DNA from: a bacterium
GTDB taxonomy: Bacteria; Myxococcota_A; Bradymonadia; UBA7976; UBA1532
DNA: 64,000 nucleotides
Assembly: GCA_030426085.1 (NCBI GenBank)
Contig: JAUHYW010000003.1
Location: 1 to 64,000, forward strand
Direction: 5' to 3'
Below, piece after piece: positions 1,934 through 14,729 of the stretch. Each line of letters opens with the position of its first letter. Position 1 is the first letter of the stretch. The translations under genes were made by a program, and so were the position numbers. The notes below the pieces were generated by a model that worked only from the letters and a program-made list of their open reading frames with translations, was not told the origin of the DNA and made no database searches.

Positions 1934-4069
1934 ATGGAGCGGATCATCGACGAGGCGCCGATCACCGCGGTGACCGTGCACCGCCAGGGGGCCACGGTCA
2001 CCCGGCGGGTCGCGGTGCCGGCCGACGACGGGTGGCCCGGGGCGGTGGCGGTCGTGGGGCTGCCCCTGGCCATCCGGGCCCCGACGGTGCGGGTGCGGGT
2101 CGCCGCGGTGCAGGGGGAGGGGCGGGTCATCGCGGGGGACGCCCGGCTGGGGGTCTACGCCCGCCCGCCGGCCGAGACCGTCGAGCCGCCCGCCGCCGCC
2201 GATCTGCGGGCGGCCGAGCGGGCGGTGACCCGCCTCGAGCAGCGCGTGGCCCAGGTGGACGCCGAGCTGGCTCTGGTCGAGCGGGCGGCGATCGAGCCCC
2301 GTCCCGAGCCGCAGCCGGGCAAGGCGCCCCCGCCGTCTCCGATGGGGGCCCGGCTGGCGCTGGTGGGCTTCGTCGACGCGCTGGCCGAGGCCCGCCACGC
2401 CGAGCGGGCCGGGCTGGAGGCCGAGCTGGCCGAGGCCCGGGAGGCGCTGGCCGACGCCCGCGACCGGGCGCTGCGGGCGTCGAGCGCCGAGGAGATCGAC
2501 GGCGGGGCCATCAGCGCCCGGATCGACGTGCCGCTGGAGGTCGAGGGCGGGCCGACGGGGGCCACGCTCGAGCTGAGCTACTTCGTGCCCGGCGCCCGCT
2601 GGGTCCCGGCGTGGCAGGTGCGGCTGGCAGGCGACGGCAGCGCGGCGACCATCGAGATGCGGGCCCACGTCATCCAGAGCAGCGGCGAGGACTGGTCGGG
2701 GGTCGCCCTGCGGCTGTCGACCGCCGAGCCGCTGCGGTTCTCGAGCCTGCCCGAGCTGAAGTCCATCCGCATCGGCAAGGCCCAGGCGGCGCCGCCGACG
2801 ACCCGCGGCTTCCGCCCGCCGCCGACCGGGGCCCGGGCCCTGTTCGGCGACTTCGACCGGGCCCGCCACCGCCTGCGGCCGAGGGCCCCCGGCGCTGCGG
2901 CGCTGCCCGCGCCGGCCGACGCCGCGCTGCCCGGGCTCCCCGAGTGGGACCCGCCGGTGGCGGTGGGCACCGCGTTCGGCGGGGCGGCGTTCGACGACTC
3001 GATGGATCTGGAGGGCGAGGCGCTGATGGAGTCCGCCGCCGCGCCCCCGCCGCCGATGATGGCCCGGGCCGCGCCGGCCCCCCGCGGCGCCCCGCCCCCC
3101 GCGCCCCGCTCGCCGATGCGCAAGCGCAGCCGCTCGTCGGGGGGCCCGCCCAAGGGCGGCGGCGGGCTCGGCGGGCCGCCCGAGGCGGTGCGGGCGGCGG
3201 TGCTCTTCGCCGGCCTTCGCCTGCCCCCGCCCGACAGCGCCGACCGGGGCCGGCTGGCGCCCGAGGATCGCGCGGCCCGCTGGCGGGAGGCCCTGACCGC
3301 CGACGGCCGCCGGCTGCGGGTCGACCCGGTGCTCACCGCCGAGGCCGCCGAGCGGGAGGCCCGGGCGGCGGCCGGGGTGCCGGTGCCCGCGGGCACGACC
3401 CCGGTGGGCAGCCACGCCTTCGACTACGCCTGGACCGCCGCCAGCCCGGTGGACGTGCCGGGGGACGGCGGCTGGCACTCGGTGCCGCTCGGCGAGCGCG
3501 AGCTGCCCTGCGCGCTGCGCTACGTGACCGTGCCCCGCGAGGCGCCCCACGTCTTCCGGCTGGCGACCCTGCACAACCCCGGCCGGGCCCCGCTGCTGCC
3601 CGGCCCGGCCGAGCTGTACGTCGACGGGGCCTACGTGCTGTCGACGACCCTGGTGCACGTGCCCGGCGGCGGCCGCTTCGAACTGGGCCTGGGGGTCGAG
3701 CAGGCCATCCGCTGCGCCCGCAACACCCACTACGAGGAGGCCCGCTCCGACGCCCGGGTGGTGGCGATGGCCGAGCTGCGCCACCGCATCTCGATCGAGC
3801 TGCACAACGGCCTCGGCCGCCCGGCCGACGTCGAGGTGCGCGAGCGGGTGCCCCAGCCGGCCGAGGGGGCCGAGGTGGTCATCGAGGAGCTGCACGTCGA
3901 GCCGCTCTGGGAGGGCTACGACCAGACCGAGCGGGGTCAGCCCATCCTCGGCGGGCGCCGGTGGCGGGTGAGCGTGCCCCCCGGCGGGACCGAGGCGCTG
4001 AAGGCCACCTACGTGGCCAAGATCTATGCCGCCAACGAGCTGGTCGGCGGCAACCGGAGGGAGGCGTGA
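1934..4069 (+). CDS. DUF4139 domain-containing protein (mucoidy inhibitor A-like), first of a tandem pair
   Basis: The 711-residue product has the layout of the DUF4139 / mucoidy-inhibitor A-like family. The N-terminal strand region (ITAVTVHRQGATVTRRVAVP, near 10-30) matches the DUF4140-type start. A coiled coil follows near 75-185, then the beta-rich DUF4139 core with the characteristic YFVPGARWVPAWQVRL and SSGEDWSGVALRLSTAEP stretches (about 215-270) and a C-terminal part ending VPPGGTEALKATYVAKIY. Residues 300-430 are an unusual low-complexity insertion rich in Pro, Ala, Gly and Arg. No signal peptide is seen. Biochemical function of the family is unknown. The start follows an AGAGAGGGGG ribosome binding site. 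The stop overlaps the next gene (TGATG), a paralogue. Confidence 0.85.
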   Translation: MERIIDEAPITAVTVHRQGATVTRRVAVPADDGWPGAVAVVGLPLAIRAPTVRVRVAAVQGEGRVIAGDARLGVYARPPAETVEPPAAADLRAAERAVTRLEQRVAQVDAELALVERAAIEPRPEPQPGKAPPPSPMGARLALVGFVDALAEARHAERAGLEAELAEAREALADARDRALRASSAEEIDGGAISARIDVPLEVEGGPTGATLELSYFVPGARWVPAWQVRLAGDGSAATIEMRAHVIQSSGEDWSGVALRLSTAEPLRFSSLPELKSIRIGKAQAAPPTTRGFRPPPTGARALFGDFDRARHRLRPRAPGAAALPAPADAALPGLPEWDPPVAVGTAFGGAAFDDSMDLEGEALMESAAAPPPPMMARAAPAPRGAPPPAPRSPMRKRSRSSGGPPKGGGGLGGPPEAVRAAVLFAGLRLPPPDSADRGRLAPEDRAARWREALTADGRRLRVDPVLTAEAAEREARAAAGVPVPAGTTPVGSHAFDYAWTAASPVDVPGDGGWHSVPLGERELPCALRYVTVPREAPHVFRLATLHNPGRAPLLPGPAELYVDGAYVLSTTLVHVPGGGRFELGLGVEQAIRCARNTHYEEARSDARVVAMAELRHRISIELHNGLGRPADVEVRERVPQPAEGAEVVIEELHVEPLWEGYDQTERGQPILGGRRWRVSVPPGGTEALKATYVAKIYAANELVGGNRREA

Positions 4070-5664
4070 TGTCGGGTCACGTGAGCTGGCTGGAGGGGCC
4101 CGCCGCCGAGCGGATCGCGCTCGAGGCGCCGGTGACCGGGGTGGTGCTGCTCGAGGATCGGGCGCAGGTGCGCCGGGCGGGCACGATCGCGCTGGAGGCC
4201 GGCCGCAACCGGCTGGTGCTGCGGGGGGTCTCGCCCATCTTGCAGGACCTGTCGCTGCGGGCCGAGGTCGCGGGGGGCAAGGGCGGGGTGCGGGTGGCCG
4301 ACGCCCGGGTCCGCCGGGGGCTGCGCACCGCGCGGGCGGCGAAGCCCGAGGCGGTGCAGGCCCTCGCCGCGGCGGTGCGCGAGGCCAACGCCCGCTTCAC
4401 CGCCGAGGCCCGGGCCGCCGGGCGGGCGCTGGCGATGCACGGCCGGGTCGGCGAGATCGTGGGCCGGGGGGTCGCCGAGCTGCCCCGGGACGTGGCCTGG
4501 GGCCTGGCCGACGGCGACGGCTGGGTGCAGACGTTCGGCCAGCTCTTCGAGCGGGGCCGGGGCGCCGCCGAGCGGGCGGTCGAGCACCGATTCGCCGCCG
4601 AGGACGCGCTGCGCGAGGCCCGGGACGCCGCCGCCCGAGCCCGGGCCGCCGACCGCCCGGACCACCACCTCGAGGCCTTCGTCGAGCTCGATCTGGACGC
4701 CGAGGCGGCGGCCGAGGTCGAGGTGGCGGTGCTCTACACCGTGCCCAACGCGTTGTGGCGCCCGGTGCACCGGGCCCGGCTCGACGGCGACACGCTGCGC
4801 TTCGAGAGCCGGGCGGCGGTCTGGCAGCGCACCGGCGAGGACTGGACCGACGTGCGCTTCGCCGCCTCGACCGCCCGCACCTCGCTGGGCACCACCGCCC
4901 CGCTGCTCGACGACGACCTGCTCACCGCCCGCCGCCGTCATGAGGAGCAGATCACCCTCGCCGCCCGCGAGGTGCAGGTGCAGCGCCTCGGCCCCCAGGG
5001 CGGCCCGCCGCCGAGCAGCGCGGTGGATCTGCCGGGGGTCGACGACGGGGGCGAGGTGCGCCACCTGACGGCCGATCGCCCGGTGACGATCCCGGGGGAC
5101 GGGCGGCCGGTCTTCGTCGAGCTGTCCGGCTTCGAGGCCCCCGCCCGCCGGGATCGGGTGCTGATGGCCGAGGCCGACCCGACGGTGCACCTGCGGGTGC
5201 AGGCCCGCCACGCCGGGCGCCAGCCGGTGCTCGCCGGCCCGGTCGAGCTGGTCCGCGACAGCGGCACGGTGGGCTGGACCGAGACCCTGTACGTGGCGCC
5301 CGGCGCCGAGATGGAGCTGGGCTTCGGCCCCGACGACGCGCTGCGGGCGGTGCGGGCGGTGGACGTCGAAGAGGAGACCGACGACGTCGATCGGTGGACC
5401 CGGCGCACGGTGCGGGTGCGGCTGTACCTGAGCAACCTCGGCGGCGAGGACCGCGCGGTGCGCATCACCGAGCGGGTGCCGGTCTCGGAGGTCGAGCAGG
5501 TGCGGGTCGAGGTGCTCGCCGGCGGGGCCGACGCCGACGGCGCGGCGCAGCAGGCCGACGCCGACGGCATGTGGACCGTCGAGCGCACGGTGCCGGCCGA
5601 CGGCCACTGCGCGGTCGTGCTGCGCTGGCAGATGGCGACCGCGCCCGGCGTGCAGGGGGTTTGA
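4069..5664 (+). CDS. DUF4139 domain-containing protein, second of the tandem pair
   Basis: The 531-residue product is a shorter paralogue of the preceding gene and is translationally coupled to it by TGATG. It shows the same order: N-terminal strands (APVTGVVLLEDRAQVRRAG), a helical coiled-coil middle (about 95-215), and the core signature LYTVPNALWRPVHRARL with RTGEDWTDVRFAAS at about 220-270. The C-terminal beta region contains WTRRTVRVRLYLSNLGG and ERVPVSEVEQVRVEV. It lacks the long low-complexity insert of its neighbour. The two proteins may work as a heteromer, which is an inference from coupling and paralogy. No export signal is seen. Confidence 0.83.
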   Translation: MSGHVSWLEGPAAERIALEAPVTGVVLLEDRAQVRRAGTIALEAGRNRLVLRGVSPILQDLSLRAEVAGGKGGVRVADARVRRGLRTARAAKPEAVQALAAAVREANARFTAEARAAGRALAMHGRVGEIVGRGVAELPRDVAWGLADGDGWVQTFGQLFERGRGAAERAVEHRFAAEDALREARDAAARARAADRPDHHLEAFVELDLDAEAAAEVEVAVLYTVPNALWRPVHRARLDGDTLRFESRAAVWQRTGEDWTDVRFAASTARTSLGTTAPLLDDDLLTARRRHEEQITLAAREVQVQRLGPQGGPPPSSAVDLPGVDDGGEVRHLTADRPVTIPGDGRPVFVELSGFEAPARRDRVLMAEADPTVHLRVQARHAGRQPVLAGPVELVRDSGTVGWTETLYVAPGAEMELGFGPDDALRAVRAVDVEEETDDVDRWTRRTVRVRLYLSNLGGEDRAVRITERVPVSEVEQVRVEVLAGGADADGAAQQADADGMWTVERTVPADGHCAVVLRWQMATAPGVQGV

Positions 5665-5770
5665 CGGGGCACCCTGCCCCACCGCGGGCGGCGCCCGTCG
5701 CGCCATTCGCCGCCGCCGGCCTCGATCGGGCGCCTCGGAGGCGGCACGGGCTTCGCAAAGCGTGTGGCGC

Positions 5771-7546
5771 ATGTCACTCGCGCCGCTGCTCTGCTTCGTC
5801 CTCGCCGCCCCCGGTCTGCCGACCGGCTCGTCCTCCTCCAACCCGTCGCCCCGGAGCCACCGCGACAGCGTCGACCCGCTCGACGTGCTCGAGTCGGGCG
5901 GGGCGTGGCTGGTCGACGCCATCACCCCCGAGCGCGACCGCCCCCGCAGCGACGCCCGGTGGGACAGCCGGGAGAGCCCGCGCCACGCGGTGATGACCTT
6001 CATGGCCGGCATGCGCCGCATCGAGGAGGGCCGCGGCGGCTGGCCCCGGGTGGTCAGGACCCTGCCCCCCGATCGCGGCGAGGCCCGGGCCGAGGCGGCG
6101 GCGCTGTACGACGCGCTGCTGCGGCTCTCGCCCATCGAGCCGATCGACCTGCCCGCGGCCGACGGTCTGGCCGACGGGCAGACCCGCTACGAGCTGTTCC
6201 CCCGGGGCATCGACCACGACTGGATCTGGACCGCCCTCGACGGCGCGCCCGACGGGCGGGTGGTGCTGCTCGCCGACGGCGAGGGCTGGCGGTTCTCCCC
6301 GGCGACCCTCGACGGCGCCGGCCGCTTGGCGGCGTCGCTGGCCCCCATCGCCCCGTGGTACGAGGCCGAGCGGCGGCGGGCCCTGTTCGTCGACGTGCTG
6401 CGCCCCACGGTGCACGAGACCCCGTGGTGGGCCTGGCTGGTGGCGTCGGGCATCCTGGCGCTCGGGGTCGGCGTCGGCTGGTACGGCCGCCGCCGGCTCC
6501 AGCGCATCGAGCTGAAGCGGGGCGCGGTCGACACCGCGGTGCACGCCCTGGGCACGCCGCTGCTGCTGCTCGGGCTGACCCTGGCGACGACCCTCGCCTC
6601 GCTCTTCCTGCACTTCGGCCCGGTGCTCTCCGACCTGCGGTGGGCGGTGGTGCGCATGCTGGGGCTGCTGACGGTGGTGTGGCTGCTCTTCGGGCTGGCC
6701 GACCTGGGCACGCTGGCCTACCGGGCGTGGTTCGGCGAGGACAACCCGTACCACGCGATGGCGCTGACGGTGGTCCGCCGACTGCTGCGCATCGTCGTCT
6801 TCGTGCTGGTGCTGCTCTTCGTGCTGGAGAACGTCTTCGACTTCCGGGTCGGGGCCCTGCTCGGCTCGCTGGGCCTCGCCGGGCTGGCGCTGTCGCTGGC
6901 CGGCAAGGACGCCGCCAAGAACCTCTTCGGCGCGCTGGTGGTGTTCTTCACCCGGCCGTTCGTCGTCGACGACTGGATCGAGTTCGAGGGCTACCTGGGC
7001 ATCGTCGAGGATGTCGGGGTGCAGGCCACCCGGCTGCGGCTGCTCAGCGGCGAGCTGGTCACAGTGCCCAACATGAAGTTCGTCGACCGCCCGGTGGAGA
7101 ACCTCAGCCGGCGCCGCGAGATCCGGCGCAAGATGTCGATCGCGGTGCCCTACGGCACCTCACCCGCGCAGCTCGACGCGGCCCTCGAAGCGGTGCGGGG
7201 GGTGCTGCGCGACGAGCAGATCGCGGGCGACGGCTGCTTCGACCTCGACGCCCGCCCGCCCGAGGTGGCCCTCGTCGAGATCGAGGCGGACCACCTCGAG
7301 ATCCGGGCCTACTACTGGTACCAGATGGGGGAGGCGGGGCAGACCCAGCGGGATGTGCCCCGGGGCTGGTACACCTATCTGCATCACTGCACGGCGGTGA
7401 ACCGGGCCCTCGTGCGGGCGTTCGACGAGATCGGGCTCGACTTCGCCTTCCCCACCCGGACCCTGCACCTGACCGGGCACGCCCGGGGGCTGTCGGTGGC
7501 GGTGCGGGACGGGGCGGGCGAGCCGGCCGAAGAGCCGGCCGGCTGA
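5771..7546 (+). CDS. MscS-family mechanosensitive ion channel with exported N-terminal domain
   Basis: From the ATG chosen here the product is 591 residues. A GTG 9 bases upstream is an alternative. A signal-peptide-like start (MSLAPLLCFVLAAPGLP) leads into a soluble domain of about 200 residues, followed by four hydrophobic segments near 218-238, 258-280, 293-315 and 338-358. The pore helix and vestibule have classic MscS residues: GSLGLAGLALSLAGKDAAKN, then VVDDWIEFEGYLGIVEDVGV and GELVTVPNMKFVDRPVENLS. The C-terminal alpha/beta domain follows. Such channels release solutes on osmotic downshift. The large extracytoplasmic domain makes it longer than E. coli MscS (286 residues), like the bigger members of the family. 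It ends three bases before the convergent Cys-repeat gene. Confidence 0.92.
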   Translation: MSLAPLLCFVLAAPGLPTGSSSSNPSPRSHRDSVDPLDVLESGGAWLVDAITPERDRPRSDARWDSRESPRHAVMTFMAGMRRIEEGRGGWPRVVRTLPPDRGEARAEAAALYDALLRLSPIEPIDLPAADGLADGQTRYELFPRGIDHDWIWTALDGAPDGRVVLLADGEGWRFSPATLDGAGRLAASLAPIAPWYEAERRRALFVDVLRPTVHETPWWAWLVASGILALGVGVGWYGRRRLQRIELKRGAVDTAVHALGTPLLLLGLTLATTLASLFLHFGPVLSDLRWAVVRMLGLLTVVWLLFGLADLGTLAYRAWFGEDNPYHAMALTVVRRLLRIVVFVLVLLFVLENVFDFRVGALLGSLGLAGLALSLAGKDAAKNLFGALVVFFTRPFVVDDWIEFEGYLGIVEDVGVQATRLRLLSGELVTVPNMKFVDRPVENLSRRREIRRKMSIAVPYGTSPAQLDAALEAVRGVLRDEQIAGDGCFDLDARPPEVALVEIEADHLEIRAYYWYQMGEAGQTQRDVPRGWYTYLHHCTAVNRALVRAFDEIGLDFAFPTRTLHLTGHARGLSVAVRDGAGEPAEEPAG

Positions 7547-7549
7547 GGC

Positions 7550-9412
7550 TCAGGGGCGCACGCCATCGGGGGAGACGCACCGCCGGCAGTCGGCGTCGCA
7601 GCGCAGGTCGCCCTGGCACTGGTCGACGCAGACCCCGTCGGGGCCCCGGTTGCACTCGGGGGCGTAGCACCGCTGGCAGTCGACGTCGCACACCGTGCCC
7701 GCCGGGCAGTTGTCGGCGCAGACCCCGTCCTCGCCCACGCTGCACGGGGGCGGCGCCTCGACGCAGGCCCCGCAGTCGCCGTCGCACACCTGGCCCGCCG
7801 GGCAGTCGTCCCGGCAGACCCCGTCGTCGTTCCAGCAGGCCCGGGGCACGCAGGCCCCGCAGTCGCCGTCGCACTGCTGGTCGGCGGGGCACTGATCGAC
7901 GCAGACCCCGTCGCCGCCCCGGCTGCACGGGGCCTCGGCGTCGGGCACGCACCCGGTGCAGGTCTGCTCGTCGCAGGTGCTGCGGGCCGGGCAGTTGGAG
8001 GTGCACAGGAACTCCTCCGGCCCGCCGATCTGGACCCGCAGGCAGTCGTCGGGCTCGGGCACGCAGCGGCGGCACGCGGCCTCGCACACCTCGCCCTCGG
8101 GGCACTGGTCGAGGCAGATGTCGTCCAGCACGTTGCACTGCGCCGGCACGCAGCCCCCGCAGTCCTCGTTGCACACCAGCCCCGGCGGGCAGGTGTCCTC
8201 GCAGACGCCCTCGGCGAGCACGCAGCGGGGCTCTTCGGGCACGCACACCGCGCAGTCCTGGTCGCACACCGCGCCCTCGGGGCAGCGGTCGAGGCACACC
8301 CCGTCGTCGCCCTCACCCTCGCGGTCGCAAGGGATCGGCTCGCAGATCGCGCAGTCCATATCGCACACCGAGCCGAGCGGGCAGCGGTCGAGGCACACCC
8401 CGGCGTCGTCGAGCTGGCACGGGATGAACTCCTCCTCGCAGGCGTCGCAGCCCTCGTTGCACACGAAGCCGTCGGGGCAGTCGTCCCGGCAGACCCCGCC
8501 CTCGAGGGCGCACAGGTCGGGCTCGAATACGCAGCCCTCGCAGTCCTCGCGGCATTGGAACCCGGGCAGGCACTCGTCGTAGCACCGGTCGCCGGCGAGC
8601 AGGCAGCCGCCGTCGGGCGGGATGGGATCGGGGTTGTCGGGCATGCAGTCGGTGCACGACTCGTCACACGCGCTGCCCCGGGGGCAGGGGTCGACGCACA
8701 TCATCGACAGCTCGTCGGGCTCGCAGGACACCACCTCGCAGGCGTCGCACGCCTCGTTGCAGCTCTGGGCCTGGGGGCACGCCTCGAAGCAGATGCGGGA
8801 GTCGAGGGTCAGCCCGCAGCCGTTGGGCGGGGGCGGCACGCAGCCCCGGCAGGCCACGTCGCAGATGAGGCCCCCGGCGCAGTCGTCGATGCACAGGTCG
8901 AACTGCCCGTCCCCGTCGTCGTCGATCCGGCGGCAGGGGAAGTCGGGCAGCGGCTCGCAGCCGTCGCAGAACGCGTTGCACCGCTCGCCGGCCAGGCAGG
9001 TGTCCTCGCAGACCCCGTCGACCATCGCGCAGCCGGGGGGATCGATGCACTCGCGGCAATAGGGATCACACTGCTGGCCCTCGGGGCACTCGTCGACGCA
9101 GACCCCGCCCTCGCCCCGGCACGGCGGGGGCGGCGGCTCCATGTCGCCGTCGGGTGGGGGCACGTCGGCGTCGCCCATGTCCGGCGGCGGGATGGGCTGC
9201 TCGTCGGGCAGGGGCATGTCGGGGATCGGATCCATGTCCCGGGCCCGGGCGTCGGGCCGGGCGTCGGTCCGGTCGCCGCCGACGCTGCCGTCGCCCACGT
9301 CGGCCAGATCCGGCACCGCGTCGCTGCGGGATCCGGTGTTGTCGTCGCACGCGGCGCCGACCGTGAACAACAGTCCGGCCAGCGCGCACACGCGCATCGC
9401 TGATCGCTGCAT
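7550..9412 (-). CDS. lipoprotein with sixteen six-cysteine repeats
   Basis: I place the start at the ATG at 9412 because GAGGG lies just upstream and it gives a clean lipoprotein signal (MRVCALAGLLFTVGAAC). An in-frame ATG at 9460 would add 16 residues. After the lipobox comes an Asp/Pro-rich linker of about 80 residues. Sixteen tandem repeats of roughly 30 residues then fill the rest. Each has six cysteines in the pattern C-x(5-12)-C-x3-C-x5-C-x3-C-x2-C, often read as GVCxDxCPxGxVCDxDCxxC. The acidic, disulfide-rich design suggests a rigid surface or periplasmic rod, possibly metal-binding or adhesive; function is unknown. A second Cys-rich lipoprotein gene lies 75 bases upstream on the same strand. 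Confidence 0.8.
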   Translation of the reverse strand: MQRSAMRVCALAGLLFTVGAACDDNTGSRSDAVPDLADVGDGSVGGDRTDARPDARARDMDPIPDMPLPDEQPIPPPDMGDADVPPPDGDMEPPPPPCRGEGGVCVDECPEGQQCDPYCRECIDPPGCAMVDGVCEDTCLAGERCNAFCDGCEPLPDFPCRRIDDDGDGQFDLCIDDCAGGLICDVACRGCVPPPPNGCGLTLDSRICFEACPQAQSCNEACDACEVVSCEPDELSMMCVDPCPRGSACDESCTDCMPDNPDPIPPDGGCLLAGDRCYDECLPGFQCREDCEGCVFEPDLCALEGGVCRDDCPDGFVCNEGCDACEEEFIPCQLDDAGVCLDRCPLGSVCDMDCAICEPIPCDREGEGDDGVCLDRCPEGAVCDQDCAVCVPEEPRCVLAEGVCEDTCPPGLVCNEDCGGCVPAQCNVLDDICLDQCPEGEVCEAACRRCVPEPDDCLRVQIGGPEEFLCTSNCPARSTCDEQTCTGCVPDAEAPCSRGGDGVCVDQCPADQQCDGDCGACVPRACWNDDGVCRDDCPAGQVCDGDCGACVEAPPPCSVGEDGVCADNCPAGTVCDVDCQRCYAPECNRGPDGVCVDQCQGDLRCDADCRRCVSPDGVRP

Positions 9413-9487
9413 GATGCCCTCGTTTCGGCGCCTGCGCGCCTGCTCCCCTTGGGTGTTCATGCCCCGCGTTGTGCCACGAACCCCCGG

Positions 9488-11851
9488 TCAATAGCACGCC
9501 CCATCACCGGCGGCGTCGCGCCGGCAGCGCAGGGGGTCGGCGCAGTCGGCGTCGTCGAGGCAGCGATCGGCGCACACCCGCAGGGGCGCGGCCGGATCGC
9601 GGGCCAGATCGACGCAGCGCCCGCCCCCGCAGTCGGCGTCGGCCCGGCACGGCGCGCCGCAGCGGCCGCCGAGGTAGCCCGAGATGCACCACCCCGACCC
9701 GCACTCGCCGCCGCCGTCGCACGCCGCGAGGCGCGAGCCGGGACCGGCGGGCACGCAGGCCCCGGGCACCTCGCCCTCGCCGGCGGGCAGGGCCAGCGGC
9801 GCGCAGGCCTGCTCCGCCGGGCAGTCGGCCGCCGCCAGCCGACACGGGGCCCGGCAGCGCCGCCCGTCGGCCCCCTCCAGGCAGCCGGCGGCCCCCGGGC
9901 CGCAGTCGGCGTCGCCCGCGCAGGCAGCCCCGACGGCCGGCTCCGGCGGCGCGGCCACGCACTGCCCGCCCACCGCGTCCGCCGCCGGATCACACACCTC
10001 GCCCGCCGCGCACGGCGCCTCGGGCCCGCAGGCGCCGACGCACCACGACCCGCCGAAGCGCTCGACGCACGCCGTGCCCTCGGGGCAGCCGTCACCGCAG
10101 GGCGCCGCGCAGCGCCGGCCGAGGCACAGGCCCCCGGCGCAGTCGGCGTGGGCCGCGCACACCGCCCCGGGCGGCGCCTCGCCCACCGGCAGGCACAGCC
10201 GGTCGCGGCCCAGATCGACGCAGACCCCCGCGGCGCAGCCCGCGCCGCAGCGCCCCTGGCAGCGCCCGTCGAGGCACAGCCCGGCGGCGCAGTCGGCGGC
10301 CCCGGCGCACGGCGCGTCGGCCCCGCCCGGGCCGGGCTCGATGCAGGCCCCCGCCAGCCGATCGCACACCCGCCCCGCCCGGCAGTCGAGGTCGTCGGCG
10401 CAGCGGGGGTGGCACTGCCCGTCGCGGCAGATCGCGTCCGCCGGGCAGCCCGCCGCGCAGTCGGGCAGGCAGCGCCCGGCGGCGCAGGCCAGCCCCTCGG
10501 CGCACCCGTCGACCGCCTCGCAGGCGGCCTCGGCCGGCAGGGGGCGGGCCGCGCAGAACCGGCCCCGGCCCACCGAGACGCAGCGCAGGCCGGCGGGGCA
10601 CTCGGCGGTGCACGCCCCCAGGCAGCGCCCGGCGGCGCAGCGCCCCGAGGCGCAGTCCCGGTGGTCGGCGCACGCGGCCCCGGCCGCGGCCGAGCCCCGC
10701 CAGAAGCAGATGGGGCCCGCCGCGAAGCGGGCGTCGCAGAACGCCACCGAGGGGCAGTCGTCGTCGGCGGCGCAGGTCGGGAAGCAGAACGCGCCGTCGG
10801 CGAACCCCACGCAGCGGGTGCCGGCGGGGCAGGCGCCGTCGGCGCAGTCGGCGGTGCACACCCCCGCCCCGCAGACCGCCGACGCGCAGATGGGCCCCGC
10901 CTCGCAGCGGGCGCCGACCGTCGCCGGGCCCGCCGGGCGGCAGGCCGATCCGGTGATGTCGGCCACGCAGGCGGCGCCCGCCGGGCAGACCCCGTCGGGG
11001 CACGGCGCCGAGCAGCGCCCCAGATCACAGCGCCCCGAGGCGCACTCGGCGTGGGCCGCGCAGCCCGCGCCGGCCTCGGCGACGCCCCGGGTCACGCACA
11101 GCCGCTGATCGCCCACCAGCAGGCAGCGCCCGCTCGCGCCGCAGTCCTCGCTGTCGGCGCAGCGCCGCTCGCACAGGTTGGCCGCCGGGTAGCGCAGGCA
11201 CACCCGATCGTCGGCGCAGGCCCCGTCGGGGCAGGCGTCGGCGCAGCGCCCGCCGCGGCAGATGCCCGACTCGCAGTCGCCGCCCGACCCGCACACCGCC
11301 TCGAGCGGCCCTTCACCCACCGGGATGCACACCGCCTGCGTATGCAGCGCCAGGCACCGGCGATCGGCCGGGCACCGCCCGTCGTCGCAGGCCCCCGCGC
11401 AGCGCCCCTCGGCGCAGAACCAGCTCGCGCAGTCCTCCCGGGCGGCGCAGGCGTCCCCCGCCGCGCCGGGCCCCGGCGCCACGCACATGCCGGCGTCGAG
11501 CCCGACCACCGCGCACACCAGCCCCGGCGCGCAGTCCGCCGCCGAGCGGCACACCGCCGAGCACCGCCCGGCCCCGCCCCGCCCCGCGCACAGCGGCGTC
11601 GCCGCCTCGCAGTCCCCGTCCCGGGCGCACAGCGCCGAGCAGACCCCGTGCACGCACGACCCCCGGGCGCACTGCCCGGGCGCGCAGATCTCGCCGGCGG
11701 CCTTGCGCGGCGGGGGCGGCGTCGTGTCGGGGGGTGGCGGCGCGCGGTCGACCACCGCCCCGTCGGCCGGCGGCGTGACCGGCGGATCGTCACACGCCGC
11801 GCAGGCCAGCGCGGCGCCGAGCGGGAGCAGGATCCTGACAACCCGGTGCAT
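9488..11851 (-). CDS. large cysteine-rich repeat lipoprotein
   Basis: The 787-residue product starts with a lipoprotein signal (MHRVVRILLPLGAALACAAC) and a short Asp/Pro/Thr linker (PPPPDTTPPPP). Cys modules then continue to the last residues. The repeating theme is CxxxxDCAxGxCxxGRCxxxC followed by a CPxGxxCV unit and a C-P/G closing turn, with more than 80 cysteines in total. The repeat differs from the neighbour's: it is richer in Ala/Gly/Arg and longer per unit (roughly 45-50 residues), so this is not a simple duplicate. Longer upstream extension of the frame is possible but would run into the opposite-strand ATPase gene and lose the signal peptide. Probably anchored in the outer membrane; function unknown. 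Confidence 0.78.
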   Translation of the reverse strand: MHRVVRILLPLGAALACAACDDPPVTPPADGAVVDRAPPPPDTTPPPPRKAAGEICAPGQCARGSCVHGVCSALCARDGDCEAATPLCAGRGGAGRCSAVCRSAADCAPGLVCAVVGLDAGMCVAPGPGAAGDACAAREDCASWFCAEGRCAGACDDGRCPADRRCLALHTQAVCIPVGEGPLEAVCGSGGDCESGICRGGRCADACPDGACADDRVCLRYPAANLCERRCADSEDCGASGRCLLVGDQRLCVTRGVAEAGAGCAAHAECASGRCDLGRCSAPCPDGVCPAGAACVADITGSACRPAGPATVGARCEAGPICASAVCGAGVCTADCADGACPAGTRCVGFADGAFCFPTCAADDDCPSVAFCDARFAAGPICFWRGSAAAGAACADHRDCASGRCAAGRCLGACTAECPAGLRCVSVGRGRFCAARPLPAEAACEAVDGCAEGLACAAGRCLPDCAAGCPADAICRDGQCHPRCADDLDCRAGRVCDRLAGACIEPGPGGADAPCAGAADCAAGLCLDGRCQGRCGAGCAAGVCVDLGRDRLCLPVGEAPPGAVCAAHADCAGGLCLGRRCAAPCGDGCPEGTACVERFGGSWCVGACGPEAPCAAGEVCDPAADAVGGQCVAAPPEPAVGAACAGDADCGPGAAGCLEGADGRRCRAPCRLAAADCPAEQACAPLALPAGEGEVPGACVPAGPGSRLAACDGGGECGSGWCISGYLGGRCGAPCRADADCGGGRCVDLARDPAAPLRVCADRCLDDADCADPLRCRRDAAGDGACY

Positions 11852-11926: not shown

Positions 11927-11953
11927 AGCGCAGTAGACTGAGCTTGGTTGGAT

Positions 11954-13372
11954 ATGCTCCAGGTCACGATCGACGATATCCGGCGACGACTGGCGCTGGA
12001 CAACCCATGGTGGTCGACGGGCAGCGTATACGCCCGCTTCCGGGACATTCCGCGCCGAGACTACTTCGAGCCTCTGATGGGGCTCATCGATGCGCCGGTG
12101 AATCGCTCGATCGTGGTGATGGGCCCGCGCCGGGTCGGCAAGACCGTGCTGCTTCATCAGGTGATCGCGACCCTTCTGGAGAGGGGTATCGAGCCCGGAC
12201 GCATCATGCACGTACCGCTCGACGTGCCGGTGTACGACGGCATCGGGTTGGAGCGCTTCATGCTGGACTGGGTCGACCGGGCGGGCCGGGGCCCTGAAGA
12301 GCGCTTCTACGTCTTCTTCGACGAGGTCCAATATCTCCAGGACTGGGAGATCCACCTCAAGACGCTGCACGATGCGTGGCCCGGGACCCGGTTCGTCGTG
12401 TCGGGATCCGCCGCTGCCGCGCTGCGCCGGAAGAGCCGTGAGTCGGGCGCGGGCCGATTCACCGACTTCATCCTGCCTCCGCTCACCTTCCGGGAGTACC
12501 TCCGGCTCTCACGCCTCGACGACCTCCTCGGTGTAGCGCCTTACACGCCGCCGGCTGATGTGGACATCGACGCGCTCAACGGCGCGCTGGTGGACTACAT
12601 CAACACGGGCGGCTTCCCGGAGATCGTCGTCAATGCGGCCACCCGCGCCGACTCCGAGCGATACATCCGCCAGGACATCATCGACAACGTGCTGCTCCGT
12701 GATCTGCCGAGCCTGTATGGGATCCAGGATGTGCAGGAACTCAACCGGTTCTTCGCCACCCTGGCCTACAACACGGGCCAGGAGGTCAGCATGGATGAGC
12801 TGGCCAAGAGCAGCCAGGTCAGCAAGAACACCCTCCGTCGATATCTGGAGTACCTCGAAGCCGCCTTCCTGATCGTGACGGTCGATCGGGTGGACCACCA
12901 GGCCCGGCGATTCCAGCGGCGCACGCACTTCAAGGTCTACCTGACTAACCCCTGCATCCGGGCCGCGCTCTTCGGCGCGACCGGACCCGATGATCCGGCG
13001 ATGGGCGCGCTGGTCGAGACGGCGCTCTTCGCACAATGGGCCCACTGGCCGGCGATGCAGCGACACTTGACCTATGCCCGCTGGCGTGGTGGCTACGAGG
13101 TCGATCTGGTCTATCTCTATGCCGAGAAGCCTCGCTGGTGCCTGGAGGTCAAGTGGTCGGATCGATTCGTCGACCGACCGGCGGGCCTGAAGGGTCTGGT
13201 CCGGTTCGCTGAGCATCCGAGCGAACCGCGATTGGAAGCCACCACCCGCAGCCGTTGGGCCGAGACCGGACCGCCTCCTGTTCACCACAGGCCGGCGGCC
13301 GTGGAGATTCTGCGGGTCGGGAGCATGGTCACCGATGGCCAGATTCGCGAATATCTCAAGCTGGCAACGTGA
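11954..13372 (+). CDS. AAA-family ATPase with C-terminal DUF4143 domain
   Basis: The 472-residue product (ATG start; a TTG two codons earlier is possible) has Walker A GPRRVGKT at residues 57-64 and Walker B FYVFFDEV with the DE pair at 123-124. A sensor-type VVSGSAAAAL follows. A helix-turn-helix-like segment (MDELAKSSQVSKNTLRRYLE, about 275-295) and the nuclease-like C-terminal region (YEVDLVYLYAEKPRWCLEVK, about 380-400) complete the usual ATPase plus DUF4143 architecture. Members are scattered, often mobile genes of unclear role. Third positions are visibly less GC-rich than in flanking genes, which suggests horizontal acquisition. Its end overlaps the convergent histidine kinase gene by 17 bases. 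Confidence 0.88.
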   Translation: MLQVTIDDIRRRLALDNPWWSTGSVYARFRDIPRRDYFEPLMGLIDAPVNRSIVVMGPRRVGKTVLLHQVIATLLERGIEPGRIMHVPLDVPVYDGIGLERFMLDWVDRAGRGPEERFYVFFDEVQYLQDWEIHLKTLHDAWPGTRFVVSGSAAAALRRKSRESGAGRFTDFILPPLTFREYLRLSRLDDLLGVAPYTPPADVDIDALNGALVDYINTGGFPEIVVNAATRADSERYIRQDIIDNVLLRDLPSLYGIQDVQELNRFFATLAYNTGQEVSMDELAKSSQVSKNTLRRYLEYLEAAFLIVTVDRVDHQARRFQRRTHFKVYLTNPCIRAALFGATGPDDPAMGALVETALFAQWAHWPAMQRHLTYARWRGGYEVDLVYLYAEKPRWCLEVKWSDRFVDRPAGLKGLVRFAEHPSEPRLEATTRSRWAETGPPPVHHRPAAVEILRVGSMVTDGQIREYLKLAT

Positions 13373-14729
13373 CCTCGAACCGCGCCCCTGCGCCCGACGG
13401 CGCCAGGGCGATGCGGCCCCCGTGGGCCTCGGCGATCTTGCGGCACAGGGCCAGCCCCAGGCCGGTCCCCTTCTCCCGGGTCGTGTAGAACGCCTCGAAC
13501 GCCCGCTCGGCGACCGCCGGGGGCAGCCCGGGGCCGTCGTCGGTCACCGCGAAGCCCGCCGCCGTGCGCTCGACCGTCACCCGACCCGCCCCGGCCTGAG
13601 CCGCGTTGCGCGTCAGGTTGAGCAGCAGCCGCCGGAGCTGGGCCCGGTCACCGACCACCGACGGCGCGTCGCCCGCCGGCCCTCGCACCTCGACCTCGAC
13701 CAGCCCCCGCACCTCGCCGCACAGCGCCGCCAGATCGATGGGCCCGGTCTCCAGCGGGCTCTGGCGGGCGTAGGCCAGAAACTCCTCGACCACCCGCTCC
13801 AGGGTGCCCAGCTCGCGCTCGATGCGGCCGAGCATGTCGGCCTCGTCGGGGCGGTCGGCCAGATCCTCGCCCAGCAGGCCCACGAACAGCTTCATGCCGC
13901 CCAGCGGGTTGCGCACCTCGTGGGCGATGCCGCCGAGCATGAGCTGCATCTCCCGCTCGCGGCGCAGCAGCGCGTCGCGCATCTCGTCCATGGTGCGGGC
14001 GAGCTGACCGATCTCGACCGCGCCCCCGCCGGCCGCGATCGGGGCGTCGAGGTCCCCAGCGCCGATGCGGGCCGAGGCTCGGGCCAGCCGGGCCAGCGGG
14101 GCGGTCAGCGCCCGGCTGAAGAGGATCATCAGCGCGGCCAGCGCGGCCAGCGCCAGCGCGCCCAGCGCCACCAGATACCGCTGGAGCGCGTCGAGCGCGG
14201 CGTAGTTCGTCGCCCGGCCCTCGACCCCCAGCACCGCCACCACGCCGTCGTCGTGCACCACCGGCGCGTACCCCCGCTTGTAGCGCACCCCGTCGAGGCC
14301 GGTGTACAGCACCGAGGCCGCCGTCTCGCCCCGGGCCACCTGCTCCAGTTCGAAGCGGTCCTGGGCCAGCTCCCGGTCGGGCTCGCCGGGGGGCGGGGCG
14401 TCGGGGGCGGTGTCCACCAGCGAGCGGCCGTCGGTCGCCACCAGGAAGACCCGCCGGGCGCCGCTGACCTCGGCCACCCGGGCCAGGCGGGCCCGCAGGT
14501 TCTGGTGGGTGCGGGTGTTCTCCGGCCGGAAGCGGGCCACCAGCCCGGTGGGCAGCGAGGCGGCGGCGGTGGCCGCGGTGTCCTGCAAGCGCATGCCGAT
14601 CTCGTCCTCGAGCGCCGATCGGGCGGCGAAGACGGCCAGCCCCACGATGGCCCCGACGAAGAGCAGCGTCGGCGCGAGCACCGCCAGCAGCAGGCGGGCT
14701 CTCAGCGATCGGGGCAGCGGCGGGGCCAT
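13356..14729 (-). CDS. membrane sensor histidine kinase
   Basis: The 457-residue protein has two transmembrane helices (about 13-35 and 183-205) bracketing a periplasmic sensor domain of about 145 residues. HAMP-like and dimerisation segments follow. The H-box GGIAHEVRNPLGGMK places the phospho-accepting histidine at residue 270. N375 (NLTRNAAQAG), DDGPG at 397-401 and GTGLGLAL at 421-428 form the ATPase site, and all are intact. The product would autophosphorylate and signal to a response regulator, but no regulator gene adjoins it, so it is an orphan kinase here. The H-box style resembles NtrB/ZraS-type kinases that usually pair with sigma-54 activators; that partner is inferred, not seen. 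Confidence 0.92.
   Translation of the reverse strand: MAPPLPRSLRARLLLAVLAPTLLFVGAIVGLAVFAARSALEDEIGMRLQDTAATAAASLPTGLVARFRPENTRTHQNLRARLARVAEVSGARRVFLVATDGRSLVDTAPDAPPPGEPDRELAQDRFELEQVARGETAASVLYTGLDGVRYKRGYAPVVHDDGVVAVLGVEGRATNYAALDALQRYLVALGALALAALAALMILFSRALTAPLARLARASARIGAGDLDAPIAAGGGAVEIGQLARTMDEMRDALLRREREMQLMLGGIAHEVRNPLGGMKLFVGLLGEDLADRPDEADMLGRIERELGTLERVVEEFLAYARQSPLETGPIDLAALCGEVRGLVEVEVRGPAGDAPSVVGDRAQLRRLLLNLTRNAAQAGAGRVTVERTAAGFAVTDDGPGLPPAVAERAFEAFYTTREKGTGLGLALCRKIAEAHGGRIALAPSGAGARFEVTLPA

Follow-up and report, generated by a model that had tools for sequence, protein, structure and literature searches.

Adjacent genes for two unlike cysteine-repeat proteins, putative lipoproteins that may form disulfide-braced rods at a bacterial cell envelope

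Two neighboring genes with different cysteine repeats

In a 64,000-nucleotide stretch of bacterial DNA, referred to here as the window, we found two neighboring genes on the minus strand that encode putative lipoproteins rich in cysteine. P1 (7550..9412), delimited from its translation and an ortholog alignment, carries 16 six-Cys repeats, and P2 (9488..11851), delimited in the same way and by unit parsing, carries 28 four-Cys units; all features within them are likewise on the minus strand. As the initial annotation had stated, the genes share a strand and lie 75 bases apart, counted between the stop codon of P2 and Met17 of P1; the distance is 27 bases with the first ATG of P1. The two genes are probably expressed on one transcript. 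A promoter and terminator scan of the locus, which is uninformative here, found neither element.

P1 is 620 amino acids long from Met17 and 636 from the first ATG, an alternative start at 9460. Its signal peptide from Met17 (9350..9412) was read off the translation and is followed by a putative lipidated Cys codon (9347-9349; mature CDDNTG...), whose Cys column is invariant in all five aligned proteins, and by an Asp/Pro-rich, Cys-free tether of about 75 residues (9122..9346). The remainder is an array defined by its Cys spacing (7577..9121), with repeats of 25-32 residues that follow the formula C-x(6-13)-C-x3-C-x5-C-x(3-4)-C-x2-C. We counted exactly 16 repeats, in agreement with the sixteen regular six-Cys repeats originally described, and the 98 Cys of the protein divide into 2 in the signal region and 96 in the array. 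P1 shows the core spacing 16 times, compared to never more than once in 5000 shuffles of its residues. Both frames look coding, judged by the codon composition of P1 (GC3 of 0.96 vs GC2 of 0.55) and by sister-species orthologs of P1 and P2 at 65 and 69% identity. The C terminus, ...RCVSPDGVRP, is without a hydrophobic segment.

P2 has 787 amino acids with 114 Cys, 21.5% Ala, and 14.9% Gly, so the Ala/Gly-rich modules with more than 80 Cys noted earlier were confirmed. A signal peptide read off the translation (11795..11851) precedes a putative lipidated Cys codon (11792-11794; mature CDDPPV...), aligned in all five proteins with an N terminus, and a Pro-rich tether of about 35 residues seen in the translation (11687..11791). 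Two Cys lie in the signal, and the other 112 belong to 28 units of four. These units are grouped into 11 modules (9494..11686) that alternate between three and two units (3-2-3-2-3-2-3-2-3-2-3), a feature absent from the initial annotation. Linkers are 3 residues long within a module and 10-12 between modules, and the commonest unit types by loop lengths are (5,4,4), (4,5,8), and (5,5,8-9). A two-unit motif occurs 17 times, compared to at most once in 2000 shuffles, and a perfect 3/2 alternation would arise by chance in 1/462 arrangements of six 3s and five 2s, a post hoc figure. We also considered whether duplication of a 3+2 block produced a super-repeat, but residue similarity does not support this, three-unit modules being no closer to each other (0.285) than to two-unit modules (0.330). 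At the C terminus (...GDGACY), which has no hydrophobic segment, an AR[DN]PxA...CR...CY motif is shared by the four complete orthologs and the partial protein of G010. A common family for the P1 and P2 repeats was rejected, since comparison of their profiles gave a probability of 1.7 over 8 columns; without a mutual match, the two repeat types are unlike, as first described.

Signal peptide, Cys, and tether recur in all five P1 and all five P2 proteins that have an N terminus in our ortholog alignments, and we infer that both are lipoproteins. The lipoboxes of the window copies do not conform, however: the residues ahead of the putative lipidated Cys are non-canonical in both P1 (VGAAC) and P2 (ACAAC). 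Among the 10 aligned N termini, lipobox residues are often off-consensus, and the Cys stands where expected in all 10. According to PMC3222651, Lys at +2 marks Myxococcus xanthus lipoproteins for the inner membrane and Ala at +7 for the matrix, and Asp at +2 in Escherichia coli leads to inner-membrane retention. None of the 10 N termini has Lys at +2. Positions +2 and +7 are Asp and Ser in the window P1 and Asp and Thr in the window P2; since these residues match neither mark, the M. xanthus sorting rule leaves both proteins unplaced. Their location would presumably be the outer membrane or the cell surface.

Conservation of the pair and its distribution among relatives

Orthologs of P1 were found in 5 of 13 genomes of the family (complete in the window genome, G001, G008, and G012, and cut by a contig end in G007), and orthologs of P2 in 6 of the 13 (complete in the window genome, G001, G003, and G006, and partial in G008 and G010). 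Three of the 13 genomes, namely, the window genome, G001, and G008, have both genes, each time side by side; for G008, this is seen from the final 43 residues of P2, which are encoded at the edge of the P1 contig. The pair being far apart in relatives, an outcome that would have counted against a joint role, was therefore not found. However, each gene also occurs alone at the locus. In G012 and G007, P1 lies without P2 beside a homologous Ser/Thr-kinase (STK) gene and a sensor kinase, the G007 contig ending inside P1. G003 has P2 without P1 at the locus, and G010 has P2 with another Cys-rich frame on the opposite strand at the expected place of P1. The G006 contig continues for 198 bases beyond P2, where we recognised no start of P1. 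The G008 and G012 genomes are 77 and 75% complete, and the stretch from the STK gene to P1 or P2 is contiguous in G003, G007, and G012. Because either gene stands alone on contiguous stretches in relatives, we read the pair as an old common locus that lost one gene or the other on separate occasions, rather than as an obligate couple. The proposal that the two proteins act together is thus only partly supported, with the adjacency in its favor and the single-gene loci against it. Of the fifteen regions examined, six have no P1 or P2 ortholog (two of G014, and those of G039, G047, G007:C278, and G008:C174).

The genes around the pair vary. An MscS-type channel gene (5762-7546, plus strand) converges with P1 in the window; the sister species G001 lacks it at this locus and has in its place a gene for a 511-residue protein with no Pfam match (L053:7739-9274, plus strand). 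Between P2 and a HAMP/HisKA/HATPase sensor kinase gene (13356..14729, minus strand) lies an AAA_14/DUF4143 ATPase gene (11948-13372, plus strand); it is missing from that place in G001, indicating an insertion in the window genome or a loss in G001. The STK genes of five relatives are located at L060:4284-7610, L061:4066-7410, L056:3473-6829, L057:2933-6241 (minus strand), and L054 ~2677-5811 (plus strand), and kinase and AAA_16 domains were found in both copies scanned.

The Cys frame of both proteins is preserved to a high degree. All four complete P1 proteins, the window copy included, have 16 repeats and 96 repeat Cys, although in the alignment those of G008 and G012 lack a repeat at the start and gain one inside. 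The 3-2 alternation is kept over the parseable part of every P2 ortholog: it is complete in G001 and G006, extends over the first seven modules in G003 (where unit 20 lacks two Cys, after which our simple parser runs out of register), holds in all six complete modules of the partial G008 protein, and appears as 2-3-2-3 in the first four modules of the partial G010 protein. The number of Cys after the putative lipidated one is even in all eight complete proteins (112, 112, 112, and 110 for P2; 96 in each of four for P1), which is consistent with disulfides. In G001, every P1 repeat (16/16) and P2 module (11/11) has the window unit of equal rank as its best match. For P2, equal rank also holds for 9 of 11 modules in G006, 6 of 7 parsed in G003, and 5 of 6 in G008; at family distance, the rank correspondence of P1 repeats is partial. 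Retention of the two-level P2 repeat over family-level divergence suggests that length or period may be under selection.

The residues between the Cys are far less constant. The G001 orthologs are 65% (P1) and 69% (P2) identical to the window copies, compared to 86% for a nearby SNF2 helicase, yet 97 of 98 Cys columns in P1 and 113 of 115 in P2 are common to both genomes. Between the window genome and G001, NG86 dN/dS is about 0.60 for P1, 0.40 for P2, and 0.29 for the SNF2 helicase, and between the P1 genes of G008 and G012 it is 0.76, all of these rates being rough at 96% GC3. The latter two proteins have 95 of 99 Cys columns in common at 49% identity, and second codon positions of their genes differ more (0.394) than third positions (0.371). 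The near-invariant Cys columns combined with low identity indicate that the Cys frame is fixed and that the residues between change fast; purifying selection on those residues appears mild at best.

To place the two repeats among more distant genomes, we searched with profiles, scoring the top 2 to 3 candidates per genome for the P1 and P2 profiles in the phylum, up to 24 in the class, and up to 13 for a three-repeat P1 profile, so that all counts are lower bounds. The P1 profile matched at E 1e-3 or better in at least 11 of 57 class genomes and at least 10 of 377 phylum genomes; among the candidates scored in the phylum, its best match outside the family was in G028 (E 8.6e-8), whose units do not have the P1 spacing. 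The three-repeat profile matched in at least 10 of 377 phylum genomes, with matches below E 1e-15 in seven, all in the family, and a best match outside it of E 8.6e-6 among the candidates scored. Four named P1 matches are metagenome bins, one of them labelled uncultured Myxococcales. The P2 profile matched in at least 100 of 377 phylum genomes, and beyond the six orthologs these matches are partial, the best reaching 64.8 bits. Other proteins of the family also contain P1-type repeats as modules. A 2115-residue protein of G006 (L055:8885-15232, minus strand) has seven of them near its C-terminal end, a sub-threshold DUF4215 unit, and a long N-terminal part with no Pfam match, and a G004 frame (L109:1-1671, plus strand) combines a Gly-rich repeat stretch, five P1-type repeats, and sub-threshold MopE-type motifs.

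Proteins with many Cys are common in the window genome. The spacing patterns by themselves show no excess there over a backward control (22 vs 27 for P1 and 38 vs 29 for P2), with 15 of the 22 P1 counts and 7 of the 38 P2 counts falling inside the gene itself. Gene calling placed Cys-rich proteins in seven of eight stretches chosen for P2-like spacing, including L154 (1227 amino acids, 140 Cys), L159 (1307, 119), L157 (590, 90), and L156 (491, 75); in the eighth, L158, no Cys-rich gene was called. A further protein (L155:2639-7840, minus strand) has 1733 amino acids, 114 Cys, and eight stretches matching a MopE-type putative metal-binding motif. DUF7107 gave at least 143 matches at E up to 1 in this genome, of which at least 31 individually exceed the cut-off, and DUF7107 matches lie in one uninterrupted frame of 26,329 amino acids, apparently a giant gene, outside the window on contig C162 (~195283-199986, plus strand). 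Two VKOR matches over the cut-off were also found. Since the genome has other very Cys-rich proteins, the disulfide load of P1 and P2 is ordinary for this organism, and the earlier argument that such a load is costly, viewed alongside these proteins and the two VKOR-type matches, is weak.

Fold searches and the envelope-rod interpretation

Profile searches, which the initial annotation had proposed as a check, found no well-known domain for either repeat in Pfam, NCBIfam, or the PDB. Whole P1 and P2 gave no Pfam or NCBIfam match up to E 1 and no credible PDB match; an F420 ligase hit to whole P2 (E 0.35) and a pancreatic ribonuclease, the sole PDB row for the P1 profile (E 8.4), were dropped as chance. 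In a family scan at E up to 10, the best row for P1 blocks was E 0.059. One P2 block matched Dickkopf_N at E 0.0053 (17.5 bits against a cut-off of 25 bits), the other had no match, and a 44-residue N-terminal piece of P2 matched WAP below threshold (E 0.024). Sub-threshold fragment rows to beta-defensin, DUF4926, Fer4, WAP, Teneurin EGF, and Toxin_23 were set aside as Cys-driven, as were zf-CCCH_tandem (E 0.0018) and LEAP-2 (E 0.011) in the G003 P2, which are under their cut-offs and absent from the G006 P2. Positive controls from the same genome were recovered, namely, DUF7107 in L157 (102.9 bits) and MopE in L155 (79 bits, 8 stretches). Against the PDB, the P2 profile gave four rows without significance (E 0.023-0.42), namely, LEAP-2, a scorpion peptide, Dkk1, and avian CREMP. 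Among the literature matches listed, titles and abstract openings do not name the P1 or P2 repeats.

AlphaFold2 predicted strands along most of the chain both for P1 repeats 13-15 (7661..7927; best-model pLDDT 94.2, pTM 0.65) and for the five-unit block of P2 modules 5-6 (10544..10918; pLDDT 88.1, pTM 0.74), with a confidence that may be inflated, as the alignments came from tandem copies within the same few proteins. Foldseek returned no match at E 0.001 for either model, the best being E 0.47 for P1 and 0.17 for P2. The 50 P1 rows listed are mostly ErbB, mastigoneme, TNF-receptor, mGlu, and other Cys-rich regions, with 8 viral or tail-fibre shafts; Dkk1, Dkk4, uromodulin, and follistatin head the 40 P2 rows listed, among which are also small knottin-like peptides. 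The best VIA rows were weak: RANK for P1 (Z 2.0, rmsd 2.6, 40 aligned; one row from 361 chains) and Dkk4 for P2 (Z 2.3, rmsd 5.8, 62 aligned). With a confident model and no clear relative, the P1 repeat is not represented in the libraries we searched, although this does not establish a new fold.

When small exported units contain an even number of Cys, these are normally joined in disulfides, and extended chains often result from tandem small disulfide domains. We consider it moderately likely that P1 and P2 are lipid-anchored, disulfide-braced structural rods or a coat of the cell envelope. Under this interpretation, both proteins would be exported and then lipid-anchored at the envelope, where a flexible tether would bear a long array of disulfide-braced beta-hairpin microdomains, comprising 16 three-disulfide repeats in P1 and, in P2, 11 modules with a total of 28 two-disulfide units. 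The microdomains are proposed to fold locally because their cysteines pair within them, and locally paired microdomains would make the chain a stiff, protease-resistant rod, so that rods of fixed length might extend from the outer membrane as a stalk, spacer, or coat. The repeat counts, their conservation, and the confident models made of strand pairs are observed, and we infer the pairing inside units, the extended shape, and the rod or coat role. The fixed Cys frame, the even Cys counts, the AlphaFold2 confidence, VKOR, the lack of Lys at +2, and the TraA stalk discussed below count in favor of rods or a coat; the non-canonical lipoboxes, the insignificant fold searches, Asp at +2, the essential distal repeats of TraA, the dN/dS of 0.76, and the lack of a recognised head domain count against. 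The rods suggested in the initial annotation are compatible with secreted tandem arrays of even Cys number, with confident models of hairpin type, and with Foldseek rows that, without reaching significance, come mainly from extended Cys-rich ectodomains.

The Cys and Asp of P1 and P2 might instead bind metal (Ca, Cu, or Zn) at the surface, through thiolate sites or a polyanionic surface, in line with the metal-binding surfaces offered as an alternative in the initial annotation. The hints for this are two. Mature P1 is strongly acidic, with 135 D+E vs 33 K+R, no His, and a pI of 4.05, and the G004 protein mixes P1-type repeats with sub-threshold "putative metal-binding" motifs of the MopE type. 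However, P2 is far less acidic (95 D+E vs 63 K+R), the even number of exported Cys per unit is what disulfides would give, and the DxDxDG-like loop (DDDGDG) of the third window P1 repeat is missing in G008 and G012. In addition, MopE matched neither P1 (whole protein and one block) nor P2 (whole protein and blocks), and we regard metal binding as unlikely. Single repeats could also bind ligands, making P1 and P2 adhesin- or receptor-like, with multivalent binding of the LDL-receptor kind, rather than mere rods. The positional identity of repeats and modules between the window genome and G001 and the recurrent C-terminal motif of P2 would fit such a role, but simple descent also predicts positional identity, the rank matching of P1 repeats is only partial at family distance, and family searches recognised no ligand-binding or head domain in either protein, leaving ligand binding improbable.

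It is quite unlikely that the pair forms the extracellular part of a signalling locus, with rods sensed or regulated by the sensor kinase and, in relatives, by the Ser/Thr-kinase/AAA_16 protein. In G001, G003, G007, and G012, sensor kinase homologs are indeed found a few kilobases or less from P1 or P2, and the STK gene adjoins P2 in G003, G006, and G008 and is near P1 in G007 and G012, with one small gene between. Nevertheless, the window genome and G001 have no STK gene at the locus, the G006, G008, and G010 stretches, which are short or end near P2, yielded no sensor kinase, and the window kinase is flanked by the AAA_14/DUF4143 and SNF2 genes, with no response regulator; the kinases may be chance neighbors. 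Returning to rods or a coat, a more specific version seems a long shot to us: a counterpart of egg or spore coats in which two unrelated rods of fixed length build a resistant layer, the 3-2 pattern of P2 sets the lattice period, and P1 has a new small fold. The P1 repeat, which in the searched genomes is almost restricted to one bacterial family, is a small target for structure work, and the pair offers a test case for whether, and to what end, bacteria make disulfide rods of controlled length.

Comparison with known cysteine-rich arrays

Tandem short Cys units also make up the DUF7107 (PF23416) proteins of the same genome, with 13 stretches in L157. DUF7107 matched neither P1 nor P2, up to E 1 for the whole proteins and E 10 in blocks, and no match fell at C169:7550-11851 among 150 of 692 candidates scored; the MopE-type motif (PF11617) was likewise not found in either protein, whole or in blocks. 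TNF-receptor and ErbB furin-like rods are among the Cys-rich ectodomains that make up most of the P1 Foldseek rows listed, none significant, and P1 differs from them in its short repeat and its own Cys spacing. For P2, Dickkopf_N (PF04706) is the best sub-threshold Pfam match, in one block and not in the whole protein, and Dkk1 and Dkk4, of the Dickkopf/colipase type, supply the top three Foldseek rows (E 0.17-0.5), all structural scores being weak.

P2 also resembles the C4C modules of avian CREMP and the slime-mould spore-coat protein SP75 (C-x4-C-x5-C-x(6-10)-C), whose spacing is that of its second unit type. Four of the 28 units have this spacing strictly and 12 of 28 with a first loop of 3-6, and CREMP, like P2, mixes module types that alternate in places; the CREMP sequence 9pgb is one of the four PDB rows of the P2 profile (E 0.42, not significant). 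On the other hand, P2 has C-x5-C-x4-C-x4-C units mixed in (7/28) and is prokaryotic and probably lipid-anchored. The resemblance is likely convergence.

TraA (TIGR04201, Myxo_Cys_RPT), a surface receptor of M. xanthus, resembles P1 and P2 in having tandem Cys-rich repeats in an exported envelope protein, and its host probably belongs to the phylum of the window organism, a family relative of which is labelled Myxococcales. TIGR04201 matched neither P1 nor P2, up to E 1 for whole proteins and E 10 in three blocks, and it covers 11 stretches of the control L157 at E 8.2e-4, itself under the cut-off. Neither protein had a Pfam match to PA14 (E up to 1), a weak negative since TraA's own PA14 match is distant, or an NCBIfam match to MYXO-CTERM; in both proteins, signal and tether lead directly into the repeats. 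The Cys-rich array of TraA is hypothesised to form a stalk on the cell surface (PMC3325183, PMC6372800), and its distal repeats are essential, so not all of the array is mere spacer (PMC6372800). Unlike TraA, P1 and P2 have a putative N-terminal lipid anchor and their own Cys spacings. Altogether, P1 and P2 are ordinary in kind and new in detail.
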